Origin: Candidatus Accumulibacter sp. ACC003
Lineage (GTDB): Bacteria > Pseudomonadota > Gammaproteobacteria > Burkholderiales > Rhodocyclaceae
Assembly (NCBI RefSeq): GCF_907163085.1
Contig: NZ_CAJQTX010000001.1
Coordinates: 637,001 to 701,000, forward strand
Reading direction: 5' to 3'
Length of the DNA: 64,000 nucleotides
Below are positions 31,355-35,796 of this stretch, piece after piece. The stretch's first letter is position 1. Each line of letters opens with the position of its first letter. The notes under the pieces were generated by a model. That model was not told the DNA's origin and did not search any database. It saw only the letters and a program-made list of their open reading frames with translations. The position numbers and the translations under genes were made by a program.

Positions 31355-33823
31355 ATGAAGCAGCTTGATTGTTACCATTGCGGCCAGGCAGTGCCGGCCG
31401 GCGTGGAGCTTGCCGTAAGCATCGATGGTGAGCCGCGCGGCATGTGCTGTGGTGGCTGTCAGGCGGTTGCGCAGGCGATCGTCGATAACGGCCTGGCCGA
31501 CTACTACCGTAACCGTGACGCCTTGCCCGATTCGCCGCGCGAGGCGCTGCCGGCGATCATCGACGGCCTGCAGCTGTACGATCATGCCGACTTCCAGAAG
31601 AGCTTCGTGCGGACCATAGCCGCCGGCGACGGCGGCGGCGAAGGCCAGCGTGAGGCGTCGCTGATTCTCGAGGGGATCAGCTGTTCGGCGTGTATCTGGC
31701 TCAATGAGCAGCATCTTTCGCGGCTGGCCGGCGTCGTCGCCGTCGATATCAATTACGCGACGCGGCGCGCCCGGGTGCGTTGGGACGAGCAGCAAATCAA
31801 GCTTTCCGGGATCCTGGCCGCGATCGCCGCGATCGGCTATCGCGCGCATCCCTACGACCCGGCGAAGAGCGAGGAGCTCGCCGGCAGCGAGCGGCGGCGC
31901 GCGCTGTGGCGGGTATTTGTCGCCGGTTTCGGCATGATGCAGGTGATGATGTACGCGCTGCCGCTGTATCTGGCGGGCGACGGCGAGATGACGCCGGAGG
32001 TGGCGCAGTTGCTGCGCTGGGCGAGCCTGGTACTGACCGTGCCGGTGGTCTTCTTTTCGGCCGCGCCGTTCTTTCGCAACTCCTGGCGTGATCTGCGATT
32101 GCGCCGCGTCGGCATGGACGTGCCGGTGGCGCTGGGCGTCGGTGCGGCCTTCGCGGCCAGCGTCTGGGCGACGCTGAGCGGCCGCGGCGAGGTTTACTTT
32201 GATTCGGTCACGATGTTCGTCTTCTTTCTGTTGAGCGGGCGTTTTCTCGAAATGAGCGCACGCCAGCGCGCGCTTGGCGTTACCGAGGCCCTGGCCAAAC
32301 TGATCCCGGCGCTGGCGGCACGGATGCCCGGCTACCCCGAGAGCCGCGCGCTCGAGCATGTGCCGGTCGCCGACCTGCAAGCCGGCGACGTCCTTGTCGT
32401 GCGGCCGGGAGAGACGATTCCGGCGGACGGGCAGGTGCTCGAAGGCGAAAGCAGCAGCAACGAGGCGCTGCTCACCGGCGAGAGCGCGCCAGTCGGCAAG
32501 GGCCCGGGAGCGAGCGTCACCGGCGGCGCCGAGAATATCGAGAGCCCGCTGCTGGTCAAGGTGCAGCACGTTGGCGAAGCGACGCGGCTGTCGGCGATCG
32601 TCCGCCTGATGGAGCGTGCGGCGGCCGAGAAGCCGCAGATCGTCGAACTCGCCGACCGCATCGCCAGCCGCTTCATCGTCACCCTGCTGTTCCTGGCGGT
32701 GGCGGTAGCGCTGTTCTGGCTGTACGTCGATCCGGCGCGGGCGCTGTGGGTCACCGTTTCGGTGCTGGTCGTCACCTGTCCGTGTGCTCTGTCGCTGGCG
32801 ACGCCGGTGGCGCTGACCGTCGCCAGCGGGGCGATGGCCAGGGCCGGCCTGCTGGTGACGCGCAGTCACGCCATCGAGACGCTGGCGCGGGCTACGCACA
32901 TTGTTTTCGACAAGACCGGTACGCTGACCACCGGCCGCATGCGCTTGCTCGAAGTGCTGCCGCTGGGCGAGCTCGGCCGCGAGCAGAGCCTGGCGCTGGC
33001 GGCCGCTCTGGAGCAGGCGTCGGAGCATCCGATCGGTGCCGCGCTACGCGACGCCGTCGCCGGCCAGGGTCTGCCGCTGGTCGAGGCGCTGATCAACGAG
33101 CCGGGGCGCGGCCTGAGCGCCCGCCATGCGGGGTCGAGCGTGCGCCTCGGACGGCCGGACTACGTTCTCGCTTTGCACGGCCAGCCGCTGCCGCTGGCGG
33201 CGCAGGCGCTGCTCGATGGCGGTGACACGGTCATCGCGCTCGGCGACGAGCACGGCTGGATCGCGCTGCTGCGGATTGGCGACGATCTGCGGCCGGAAGC
33301 GGCGGCGATGGTCGCCGCCCTGGCCGCCGCCGGGCTGCGGCTTTCTCTGCTCAGTGGCGATGCGGCGCCGGCCGTCCAGCGCGTCGCGGATGCCCTGGCC
33401 ATCGACCAGGTGGTGGCGGCGGCGTCGCCGCAGGCCAAGCACGACTACGTGCGCCAGCTGCAGGCCGACGGCGCCGTCGTGGCGATGGTCGGTGACGGCG
33501 TGAACGACGCGCCGGTGCTGGCGCAGGCGCAGGTTTCGGTGGCCATGGGCGGCGGTTCGCAGCTGGCGCGCACGCAGGCCGACCTGATTCTGCTCTCCGA
33601 GAACCTCGACCACCTGCGCCGCGGCGTCCTCCTGGCCCGCGCCACGCTGCGCGTCATCCGGCAGAATCTACTATGGTCTTTCGTCTATAACCTGGTGGCG
33701 CTGCCGCTGGCGATCAGCGGCCTGGTGACGCCGTGGATGGCCGGGATCGGCATGTCGGGGAGTTCCTTGCTGGTCGTCCTGAATTCCTTGCGGCTGCAGA
33801 AAACGCCGAAGGTCAGGCGCTGA
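31355..33823 (+). CDS. ccoI: Copper-transporting P1B-ATPase CcoI/FixI for cbb3 oxidase assembly
   Basis: CcoI exports copper across the inner membrane for insertion into the CcoN subunit. The 822-residue protein starts with a Cys-rich domain (CYHCGQAV and CCGGCQAVAQ), followed by a heavy-metal-associated domain with GISCSACIWLNEQ. The ATPase core carries TGES, the intramembrane metal site TCPCALSLATP, the phosphorylation site DKTGTLTTG, the SEHPIG motif and GDGVNDAPVLAQA. ATG at 31355 (MKQLDCYHCG) is preferred to the earlier in-frame starts, whose sequence is not conserved-looking. The ccoS gene overlaps its stop codon. Confidence 0.95.
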   Translation: MKQLDCYHCGQAVPAGVELAVSIDGEPRGMCCGGCQAVAQAIVDNGLADYYRNRDALPDSPREALPAIIDGLQLYDHADFQKSFVRTIAAGDGGGEGQREASLILEGISCSACIWLNEQHLSRLAGVVAVDINYATRRARVRWDEQQIKLSGILAAIAAIGYRAHPYDPAKSEELAGSERRRALWRVFVAGFGMMQVMMYALPLYLAGDGEMTPEVAQLLRWASLVLTVPVVFFSAAPFFRNSWRDLRLRRVGMDVPVALGVGAAFAASVWATLSGRGEVYFDSVTMFVFFLLSGRFLEMSARQRALGVTEALAKLIPALAARMPGYPESRALEHVPVADLQAGDVLVVRPGETIPADGQVLEGESSSNEALLTGESAPVGKGPGASVTGGAENIESPLLVKVQHVGEATRLSAIVRLMERAAAEKPQIVELADRIASRFIVTLLFLAVAVALFWLYVDPARALWVTVSVLVVTCPCALSLATPVALTVASGAMARAGLLVTRSHAIETLARATHIVFDKTGTLTTGRMRLLEVLPLGELGREQSLALAAALEQASEHPIGAALRDAVAGQGLPLVEALINEPGRGLSARHAGSSVRLGRPDYVLALHGQPLPLAAQALLDGGDTVIALGDEHGWIALLRIGDDLRPEAAAMVAALAAAGLRLSLLSGDAAPAVQRVADALAIDQVVAAASPQAKHDYVRQLQADGAVVAMVGDGVNDAPVLAQAQVSVAMGGGSQLARTQADLILLSENLDHLRRGVLLARATLRVIRQNLLWSFVYNLVALPLAISGLVTPWMAGIGMSGSSLLVVLNSLRLQKTPKVRR

Positions 33824-34041
33824 TGGAAACGCTCTACCTGCTGATTCCGATTTCGGTGGTGTTGGTCTTCCTGATCGGCCTGGCCTTCTGGTGGTCGCTG
33901 CGCAGTGGCCAGTTCGACGACCTCGAAGGGCCGGCGTATCGCATCCTCATGGATGACGACAGCCCGCCAGCGCCGCCGTCGGCCACTTTTCCCGATCTTC
34001 CCGAGACGCCGCCCGACGACCGCGAGCGCGGGCCGGGCTGA
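33823..34041 (+). CDS. ccoS: cbb3-type oxidase assembly protein CcoS
   Basis: A 72-residue protein with a single N-terminal transmembrane helix (LYLLIPISVVLVFLIGLAFW) and the conserved WSLRSGQFDDLEGPAYRIL, the CcoS signature. It is needed for cofactor insertion into the cbb3 oxidase. Its ATG overlaps the ccoI TGA by one base (TGATG). The C-terminal tail is Pro/Asp-rich. Confidence 0.93.
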   Translation: METLYLLIPISVVLVFLIGLAFWWSLRSGQFDDLEGPAYRILMDDDSPPAPPSATFPDLPETPPDDRERGPG

Positions 34042-34073
34042 AGGCCGATGGCGTTGGCCGATGTGCGCCACAT

Positions 34074-34115
34074 TTGATGCAGGTCAACCCGCGTCGCTGC
34101 GGCGCTGTTGATAAT
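34074..34115 (+). promoter_or_regulatory. FNR/Anr-type class II promoter upstream of a short transcription unit
   Basis: TTGATGCAGGTCAA (34074-34087) differs from the FNR consensus (TTGAT-N4-ATCAA) at one position. Exactly 22 bp later is GATAAT (34110-34115), a good -10, so the box would be centred at -41.5 relative to a start near 34122, which is ideal class II geometry. A strong terminator lies at 34191-34217, before ccoN. Confidence 0.75.
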
Positions 34116-34121
34116 TGCGTC

Positions 34122-34217
34122 ATTGGCGGCCCTAGTGCAACGGCATTGTGCGTTGCGGGTGGTTTGGGGGCTTCTTCTCGGTTGGGGTTCGGGTGCGTTT
34201 CGGCGCACCCTTTTTTT
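34122..34217 (+). ncRNA. Candidate FNR-dependent small RNA (about 96 nt)
   Basis: This span runs from the predicted start after the FNR box and GATAAT element to the end of the T tract of the terminator at 34191-34217. It has no open frame with a ribosome site. It contains a pyrimidine/G-rich middle (GGGGGCTTCTTCTCGGTTGG) and ends in a hairpin with seven T residues, the usual 3' end of Hfq-binding sRNAs. FNR-induced sRNAs of similar size are known (FnrS in enterics, AniS in Neisseria). An alternative is a leader/attenuator of the downstream ccoNOQP operon. Confidence 0.45.
34191..34217 (+). terminator. Rho-independent terminator between ccoS and ccoN
   Basis: A 7-bp GC-rich stem (GGGTGCG/CGCACCC) with a 6-nt loop is followed directly by seven T residues. 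It separates ccoI-ccoS and the short FNR-driven unit from ccoNOQP. Confidence 0.8.
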
Positions 34218-34251
34218 GTGTATAAGCATTCAATTATGCATGTGGGGGCTT

Positions 34252-34265
34252 TTGATGTCTGTCAA
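34252..34265 (+). promoter_or_regulatory. FNR/Anr-type box upstream of ccoN
   Basis: TTGATGTCTGTCAA has one mismatch to the FNR consensus. TAGAAT at 34283-34288 could be the -10, but the gap from the box is 17 bp rather than the ideal 22. The ccoN ATG at 34369 lies about 70-75 nt beyond the presumed start. The leader has two small hairpins, the second (CGGC-GAGA-GCCG) followed by TTTTTT at 34343-34348. Confidence 0.65.
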
Positions 34266-34368
34266 GCGGGCTCCCGACGCGTTAGAATAGCGGCCGCGTA
34301 GAGGACCCTGTCCGCAGGGGTATCGAGGACGGCGAGAGCCGGTTTTTTGTCATAAACGAGGTGAGTCC

Positions 34369-35796
34369 ATGTCGGAAACTCCGTCAACATATAACTACAA
34401 GGTGGTCCGGCAGTTTGCCGTGATGGCCGTCGTCTGGGGCATTGTCGGGATGCTCGTCGGCGTGATCATTGCCGCCCAGTTGGTCTGGCCCGAGCTGAAT
34501 ATGGGCTTCCTGCATTTTGGCCGCCTGCGCCCGCTGCATACCAATGCGGTCATCTTTGCGTTCGGCGGTAGTGCCCTTTTTTCCACCTCGTATTACGTGG
34601 TGCAGCGCACCTGCCATACGCGAATTTTCTCGGACGGACTGGCCGCTTTCACTTTCTGGGGCTGGCAAGCGGTGATCGTCCTGGCGGCCATCACGCTGCC
34701 CCTGGGGATGACGCAGGGCAAGGAGTACGCCGAGCTCGAATGGCCGATCGATATCCTGATCGCGGTCGTCTGGGTGGCCTACGCAGTGGTGTTTTTCGGC
34801 ACTATCGCCAAACGCAAGGTCACCCACATCTACGTCGCCAACTGGTTCTACGGCGGCTTCATTCTCGCCGTGGCGCTCCTGCATATTGTCAACAGCGCCG
34901 CGATCCCGGTTTCGCTGACCAAGTCGTACTCGGCCTACGCGGGCGTGCAGGATGCGATGGTGCAGTGGTGGTATGGCCACAACGCGGTTGGCTTCTTCCT
35001 GACCGCCGGCTTCCTCGGCATGATGTATTACTTCGTTCCCAAGCAGGCCGGCCGGCCGGTGTATTCGTACCGGCTGTCGGTGGTGCACTTCTGGGCGCTG
35101 ATCTTTACCTACATGTGGGCGGGTCCGCACCACCTGCATTACACGGCGCTACCAGACTGGACGCAGTCGGTCGGCATGGTGTTCTCGCTGATCCTCCTGG
35201 CACCTTCCTGGGGCGGCATGATCAACGGCGTGATGACGCTCTCGGGGGCGTGGCACAAGCTGCGCGACGATCCAATCCTGAAGTTCCTGATCACCTCGCT
35301 TTCCTTCTACGGGATGTCGACCTTCGAAGGGCCGATGATGGCCATCAAGACGGTCAATGCGTTGTCGCACTACACCGACTGGACGATCGGGCACGTGCAC
35401 TCCGGGGCGCTGGGCTGGGTGGCGATGATCTCGATCGGCTCGATCTACTACCTGATTCCGCGCCTGTATGGCAAAGCGGAGATGTTCAGCGTCAAGCTGA
35501 TCACCGTGCACTTCTGGGTGGCAACGATCGGCGTCGTGCTGTACATCGCTTCGATGTGGATCGCCGGTGTCATGCAGGGCCTGATGTGGCGGGCGACCAA
35601 CGCCGACGGTACCCTGACCTACAGCTTCGTTGAATCGGTCAAGGCTTCGTATCCGTTCTGGGCGATCCGTTTCGTCGGTGGCGTTCTCTTCCTTTCCGGC
35701 ATGCTGATCATGGCCTACAACATGGTCAAGACGATCGTCGGTGGGCGAACTGTGGACGATGCGCTGGTTCTGCTGCCAGCCGCTCACCACGCCTGA
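34369..35796 (+). CDS. ccoN: Cytochrome c oxidase cbb3-type, catalytic subunit I
   Basis: CcoN is the haem-copper catalytic subunit of the high-affinity cbb3 oxidase. The 475-residue protein has about 12 transmembrane helices with the metal-binding His residues in [59 protein letters not shown] and [14 protein letters not shown]. Start at ATG 34369 follows GAGGTGAG. It heads ccoN-ccoO-ccoQ-ccoP and is probably induced at low oxygen through the FNR box at 34252. Confidence 0.98.

Follow-up and report, generated by a model that had tools for sequence, protein, structure and literature searches.

A candidate FNR-controlled small RNA between ccoS and ccoN in Accumulibacter and other Rhodocyclaceae, with sodB as a predicted target

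Based on the analysis of the ccoS-ccoN interval and of its counterparts in related genomes, it was concluded that this interval very probably holds a small RNA gene that ends at its own intrinsic terminator and is driven by FNR from its own class II promoter, and that a seed in this RNA would pair with target mRNAs, among which sodB was the best supported in the RNA-bearing relatives. The reading of the interval as an FNR-dependent small RNA, as proposed in the first-pass annotation, was thus supported by the sequence comparisons. The window, i.e. the whole stretch of 64,000 nucleotides that was analysed, was taken from the 5.39-Mb genome, in 13 contigs, of a wastewater bacterium, and the interval separates two of its clusters of respiratory genes.

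We proposed the following sequence of events. At low oxygen, FNR would bind the -41.5 box and switch on synthesis of the RNA. The segment 5'-UUUCUCUGUUGGGGUU-3', located just before the terminator, would then pair with target mRNAs, and Hfq at the U-tail would probably aid this pairing. By pairing with the ribosome-binding site of sodB (iron superoxide dismutase), the seed would block translation. As a result, sodB would be shut off when the superoxide defence is unneeded and iron is better used elsewhere.

Promoter, terminator and predicted RNA

The FNR box, the GATAAT hexamer exactly 22 bp downstream and the T7 terminator named in the first-pass annotation were all found in place (Table 1). 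Its frame of an approximately 96-nt transcript was recovered as well, since a box centred at -41.5 puts the start at 34122 and leaves 96 nt up to 34217.

Table 1. Features of the ccoS-ccoN region, in window positions.
Feature	Position	Strand	Remark
ccoS	33823..34041	+	upstream neighbour
FNR-type box (box 1), TTGATGCAGGTCAA	34074..34087	+	centre at -41.5 of the predicted start, the class II position
-10 element, GATAAT	34110..34115	+	exactly 22 nt after box 1
Predicted small RNA	34122..34217	+	96 nt; start placed from the box spacing
Seed-like segment, TTCTCGGTTGGGGTT (consensus TTCTCTGTTGGGGTT)	34175..34189	+	conserved
Intrinsic terminator, GGGTGCG-TTTCGG-CGCACCC + T7 (GGGTGCGTTTCGGCGCACCC + T7)	34191..34217	+	
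Second FNR-type box (box 2), TTGATGTCTGTCAA	34252..34265	+	3' of the terminator
ccoN	34369..35796	+	downstream neighbour

The strict pattern TTGA[CT]N4[GA]TCAA was matched twice in the 64-kb window, both times in the ccoS-ccoN intergenic region. When one mismatch to TTGATN4ATCAA was allowed, five matches were recorded in the window, a number that none of 100 shuffles reached (shuffle mean 0.55). A box followed by a loose -10 at class II spacing occurred twice in the window and not once in 200 mononucleotide shuffles. One of these two matches was the box at 34074 (+), and the other was box 2 read on the minus strand, with a much poorer hexamer.

The genome from which the window was taken encodes Hfq (104 bits) and one close FNR-like protein (44% identity) with the N-terminal cysteine cluster CSNCNLRELC. 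The related regulators Dnr, Nnr and ANR bind the same kind of box, and other members of the FNR-like regulator family could also use it as their binding site.

A terminator search in 701 bases found two terminators against a shuffle mean of 1.1. The terminator by itself was therefore near chance, and its significance came from its conservation. The stem GGGTGCG/CGCACCC was nearly invariant across 28 aligned modules, and this conservation of sequence exceeds what termination needs. The fold of 98 nt had an energy of -38.7 kcal/mol (z -2.1). In the predicted folds, the loop UGUU and the UU after GGGG were mostly unpaired and a weak CUC/GGG hairpin was formed.

The claim that the transcript contains no ORF held inside the predicted 96-nt RNA, where ATG or GTG frames of at least five codons were absent. 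Two open frames (34074-34301 and 34108-34290) cross the predicted RNA, both beginning before +1 and passing through the terminator.

Conservation in the Rhodocyclaceae

A 331-base query was matched in 29 of 61 relatives, all of them within the family. In the alignment of these 29 loci, one of which lies near a contig end and has unlike upstream sequence (L013) and another stops soon past the terminator (L014), box 1, the -10 element, UUUCUCUGUUGGGGUU and the terminator were kept. Box 2 was present in most, and the stretch from the -10 element to the segment was variable.

Further, a covariance model was built from 28 of the 3' modules (UUUCUCUGUUGGGGUU and terminator). At E<=0.1 the model was matched in 249 of 297 family genomes and in 62 of 68 genera. 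Strong matches (E ~3e-9 or better), as counted from the match table, covered 231 genomes of 54 genera, and weak ones (E 1.7e-5 to 0.09) were recorded in 18 family genomes. All 40 strong loci L031-L070, in which some genomes of the 29 aligned loci are repeated, had the box upstream and ccoN downstream, and none of the 19 weak loci L071-L089 had an upstream box or a cco gene. Among 300 genomes of the order, the sole matches above 50 bits that fell outside the family were those of G483 and G502. The module surroundings in these two (L061 and L062) were nearly equal to those of the family loci L032 and L054, so the contigs may be misbinned; a transfer of the cco region would be another possible source of these matches. 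Weak model matches in other families (35.6 bits at most) were rejected as homologues, because the loci examined carried neither box nor ccoN.

Exact-pattern matches (at least 119 loci) included Azoarcus, Thauera, Zoogloea, Dechloromonas, Azonexus, Aromatoleum, Denitromonas and Uliginosibacterium. Cultured species with the unit include Aromatoleum toluolicum (L151), Azonexus fungiphilus (L139) and Thauera phenolivorans (L121). Among the 119 pattern loci listed, L173 and L167, the latter labelled 'Deltaproteobacteria', were discarded as chance matches lacking a terminator. Every one of the 120 distinct loci whose upstream sequence was long enough had the FNR box; the set for this count comprised 121 distinct loci, with L013 as the broken one, and L118, L143, L144 and L167 failed the terminator pattern.

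In a survey of the whole unit, 185 loci were given and 180 modules were recognised, the exceptions being L012, L108, L117, L144 and L180. A box was absent from the nearest 150 nt in four of the 180, namely L162 and L185 at contig ends, L171 with a box ~200 nt upstream and L143 with a box before an OmpW-like ORF. The gap between the box and the -10 element in 149 distinct units was 22 nt in 96, 21 nt in 52 and 23 nt in one, under a scoring that gave a small bonus to 21 and 22. The 149 distinct predicted RNAs were 65-131 nt long, mostly 65-117 nt. A small protein was rejected as their product: 120 of them had no closed ATG or GTG frame of at least five codons, 29 had one, and the 5' half was unconserved.

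Positions in this 5' half were mostly less than 60% identical, with a maximum of 68%. The conserved parts thus appear to be the promoter and the last ~45 nt only. A lack of conservation in relatives, which the first-pass annotation had named as a refutation, was not observed: the box, the -10 element, the segment and the terminator were kept in most sampled family genomes, with the refinement that the 5' half of the 96 nt varied.

At L143, a locus of a single MAG, an FNR-type box (482-495) is followed by an ORF at 540-1241, which we take to encode an OmpW-like protein and which stops shortly ahead of the seed-terminator module; the whole arrangement spans 482-1290. An outer-membrane protein gene under FNR control could here have the RNA as its 3' UTR.

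The window carries G in place of T (U in RNA) at 34180 of the seed-like segment, where nearly all other loci keep T. Of the 40 loci found by the model, which are its best scorers, 39 kept the stretch CTCTGTTGGGGTT without change, as did 21 of the 29 loci found by DNA similarity; the window's own locus was an exception in both sets. One C and UGGGGU were fixed by the pattern of the unit survey, so identity there arose by construction; the remaining UCUCUGUUGGGGUU positions were 97-100% identical in the 59 RNAs outside the exact scan.

Predicted targets

The sodB gene was the first target tried, and it was chosen because FnrS acts on sodB. The first look covered 20 loci from -80 to +45, and the full test was performed from -45 to +9 on 97 loci, one of which was dropped as its start was not found. 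Pairing was regarded as significant when at most 10 of 200 shuffled leaders paired as well. The mean duplex energy was -15.8 in 53 RNA-bearing genomes outside the window's genus and -16.2 in 22 genomes of that genus, a label that includes G003 and G009 (no match to the 331-base query) and G022 (broken locus). Genomes without the RNA gave -12.8 (11 family members) and -11.9 (10 from other families).

The pairing was stronger in the 75 RNA-bearing genomes than in the 11 family members without the RNA (Mann-Whitney p=7e-4; a second Mann-Whitney p was 6e-4), in tests that treat species as independent and that count the weak-match genomes G101 as RNA-bearing and G031 as without the RNA. Significant pairing was recorded in 48 of the 75, 0 of the 11 and 2 of the 10 genomes, respectively. 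The motif AACCC was present in 30 of 75 RNA-bearing sodB leaders vs 1 of 21 without the RNA. Shuffles of the whole seed reached the observed mean in 1 of 300 cases for the 53 genomes, 1 of 300 for the own genus and 13 of 300 for the 21 that lack the RNA; with shuffling confined to the 3' part, the corresponding values were 2, 11 and 116 of 300. The best cases were L256 of the window's genus, with 15 contiguous pairs across the ribosome-binding site, and L327, with 16 pairs.

Target prediction, which the first-pass annotation had proposed for Hfq targets, gave an excess of sodB complementarity across the RNA-bearing genomes, but not in the window's own genome, in which sodB pairing was at chance and 196 of 500 shuffled leaders did as well. 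The coincidence of the seed G at 34180 with the lack of significant sodB pairing in this genome may be due to joint decay or to a shifted target set.

Other start regions of RNA-bearing loci were assayed against the seed in the same manner of counting (significant/total). No excess complementarity was observed for the ccoN start region, with a mean of -8.9 and 0/92 significant. The means were -11.5 for ccoP (1/56), -9.8 for ccoG (2/30) and -9.5 for ccoI (1/42). Higher values were obtained for ccoO (-14.2, 12/63) and fnr (-14.1, 1/6).

Peroxiredoxin and iscU, each sampled as 30 loci from longer lists of places, were tried and rejected. For peroxiredoxin, with one of 28 loci dropped (start not found), 7 of 24 RNA-bearing leaders were significant at a mean of -14.1, vs 2 of 3 at -13.6 without the RNA; AACCC was present in 9 of 24 and 1 of 3, respectively. 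For iscU, with 4 of 30 loci dropped and the weak-match genome G029 counted as without the RNA, 4 of 19 were significant (mean -12.1) vs 0 of 7 (mean -10.7).

A search of 61 genomes for perfect 12-mer target sites gave 27 matches, of which 22 were at the module itself (that of G035 presumably so) and five elsewhere. The reversed control pattern gave nine matches against these five, thus target sites were no commoner than the control. Single-genome pattern matches picked by eye (20 of more than 100 listed places) included ErpA-, DUF2249-, YceI- and FMN-reductase-like genes. Pairing of the seed with ribosome-binding sites at -20.6 to -22.3 kcal/mol was observed in single genomes at L369, L377 and L385, whose genes we take, from our own reading of the sequences, to be DUF2249-, NADPH-dependent FMN reductase- and YceI-like, respectively.

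It is a real possibility, to which we assign somewhat less than an even chance, that the RNA exists under FNR control but acts on targets other than sodB, whose signal would then reflect the base composition or the ribosome-binding-site style of these species. The weak pairing with sodB in the window's own genome would fit this, as would the UUCUCU half of the seed, which resembles an anti-Shine-Dalgarno sequence and should pair to some extent with any ribosome-binding site. The fairly good pairing of ccoO and of fnr (n=6), the AACCC motif in peroxiredoxin leaders and the single-genome matches, which suggest DUF2249-, YceI- and FMN reductase-like genes, point the same way. In RNA-bearing loci, however, just 1 of 289 start regions of cco genes and fnr held AACCC. 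Moreover, neither iscU nor peroxiredoxin separated the genomes with the RNA from those without it, whereas sodB did.

Relation to ccoN and to known small RNAs

Among the 119 pattern loci listed, 14 kept the box and an upstream ccoI but lacked ccoN in the 900 nt that follow. One of them (L192) ends soon after the module, and 13 remained. The next gene was ndk in five, rrf2-fnr in six, a ferredoxin-like gene in one and a convergent sigma-factor gene in one. The ferredoxin-like gene (L121) was followed by an aldehyde:ferredoxin-oxidoreductase-like gene, both named from our own reading of the translations, and the convergent sigma-factor gene (L170) had its end ~0.8 kb beyond the module. In four of the six rrf2 cases ccoN was located 1.8-2.4 kb downstream, and in two the sequence stops earlier.

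Because the unit was kept in 13 loci with another next gene, it was regarded as a gene of its own rather than as a ccoN leader. The claim that the first promoter is otherwise unexplained was strengthened by these loci.

Genes resembling rrf2 and fnr were observed directly downstream of the small RNA in L118, L174, L183, L188, L201 and L208, followed by a hemerythrin-like gene in L183, L188, L201 and L208 and by ccoN in L118, L174, L188 and L208. This neighbourhood appears to be a local oxygen-sensing cluster.

The second box, which had been proposed to drive ccoN separately, was indeed present 3' of the terminator and probably does so. The hexamer TAGAAT (34283-34288) starts 17 nt past box 2; at the 22-nt position the window has TAGCGG, where many relatives have TAGCAT. 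In the ccoN leader after box 2 (34290-34368), two small hairpin-like elements conserved in the genus were observed (approximately GTGCCC..GGGCAT and CGGTGAAAACCGG).

It is very improbable that the interval is a 5' leader of ccoN with a conditional terminator, i.e. an attenuator from which the box 1 transcript enters ccoN upon relief. The unit does stand directly before ccoN in most loci, including all 40 strong ones, but a cis leader should always precede ccoN in the same orientation, and in the 13 loci above the next gene was another or a convergent one; an attenuator was rejected on these synteny breaks. In addition, a strict FNR box was located between the terminator and ccoN, within 250 nt 3' of the terminator, in 38 of the 40 strong loci, the ccoN start region had no excess seed complementarity, and a partial search of two folds revealed no competing antiterminator helix. 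It would be just as surprising if the interval were only the terminator and 3' UTR of ccoI-ccoS, with the box serving another purpose: the linkage of the unit to ccoI/ccoS persists where ccoN is not next and a 3'-UTR form seems to occur at L143, yet a bare terminator explains neither the nearly invariant segment and stem sequence nor a box and -10 element at nearly fixed spacing in 149 units.

The small RNA gene was further compared with known systems. FnrS is short and has an intrinsic terminator, and the FnrS family is present in Rfam. The Rfam covariance models gave no match in the whole window at the curated threshold. At E<=10 over 33950-34400 only SorY was returned, and at E<=0.5 six loci (five with the unit and the sodB locus L256) showed no family membership; the candidate RNA thus did not match the model of the FnrS sequence family. 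SorY (RF02651), the sole sub-threshold match, scored 15.5 bits in the window and 28.9 in L061 against a gathering score of 111, and was put down to chance, with the terminator behind the score.

At the level of sequence, the candidate has the layout of an FnrS/AniS-type RNA, namely an FNR box at -41.5 with a -10 element at class II spacing and a short RNA that ends at an intrinsic terminator and has no conserved ORF. According to PMC3032703, the fnrS gene of E. coli likewise has an FNR class II promoter centred at -41.5, a site that the candidate shares with FnrS of E. coli and other enterobacteria. PMC10993149 includes sodB, the predicted target here, among the FnrS targets. The layout of AniS, the gonococcal FnrS of Neisseria, also matched, with an FNR consensus at -41.5, a length of 108 nt, an intrinsic terminator and anaerobic induction (PMC3032703). 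As described there, gonococcal fnrS adjoins bacterioferritin genes and NGO0797, whereas the candidate lies between ccoS and ccoN. It is therefore proposed that the candidate would work like FnrS and AniS and, as far as tested, falls outside their sequence families.

The S17/bdhR1 RNA, conserved in several betaproteobacteria including Aromatoleum, is similar in having a short conserved segment followed by a terminator and many predicted ribosome-binding-site targets (PMC11722255). By the same description, S17 of Bordetella is flanked by a glycosyltransferase gene and coq7, and processing yields its short form; unlike it, the candidate has a dedicated FNR-type promoter and belongs to the cco locus.

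A limited literature search, which covered few subscription journals, returned no report of a ccoS-ccoN RNA and no small RNA described for the oxygen switch of the Rhodocyclaceae among the matches listed.

We consider it an even bet that this is an uncatalogued FNR-driven small RNA of most Rhodocyclaceae, which arose independently of FnrS and AniS and converged on sodB, with up to 15-16 contiguous bases over the Shine-Dalgarno sequence, and that genomes lacking the RNA tend to lack the sodB pairing site. As part of this reading, the unit would be modular, composed of an FNR promoter and a seed-terminator with a freely changing middle, which once took in an OmpW-like ORF.

Members of the Rhodocyclaceae (Accumulibacter, Thauera, Azoarcus, Dechloromonas, Zoogloea) denitrify, remove phosphorus and degrade pollutants under shifting oxygen. 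In culturable genera, the candidate would offer a defined gene and seed together with a target that can be tested. To our knowledge, it would be the third apparently separate case of an FNR-induced small RNA. If so, it may be asked whether RNA silencing of aerobic defence belongs to the FNR response in general and has been invented repeatedly.
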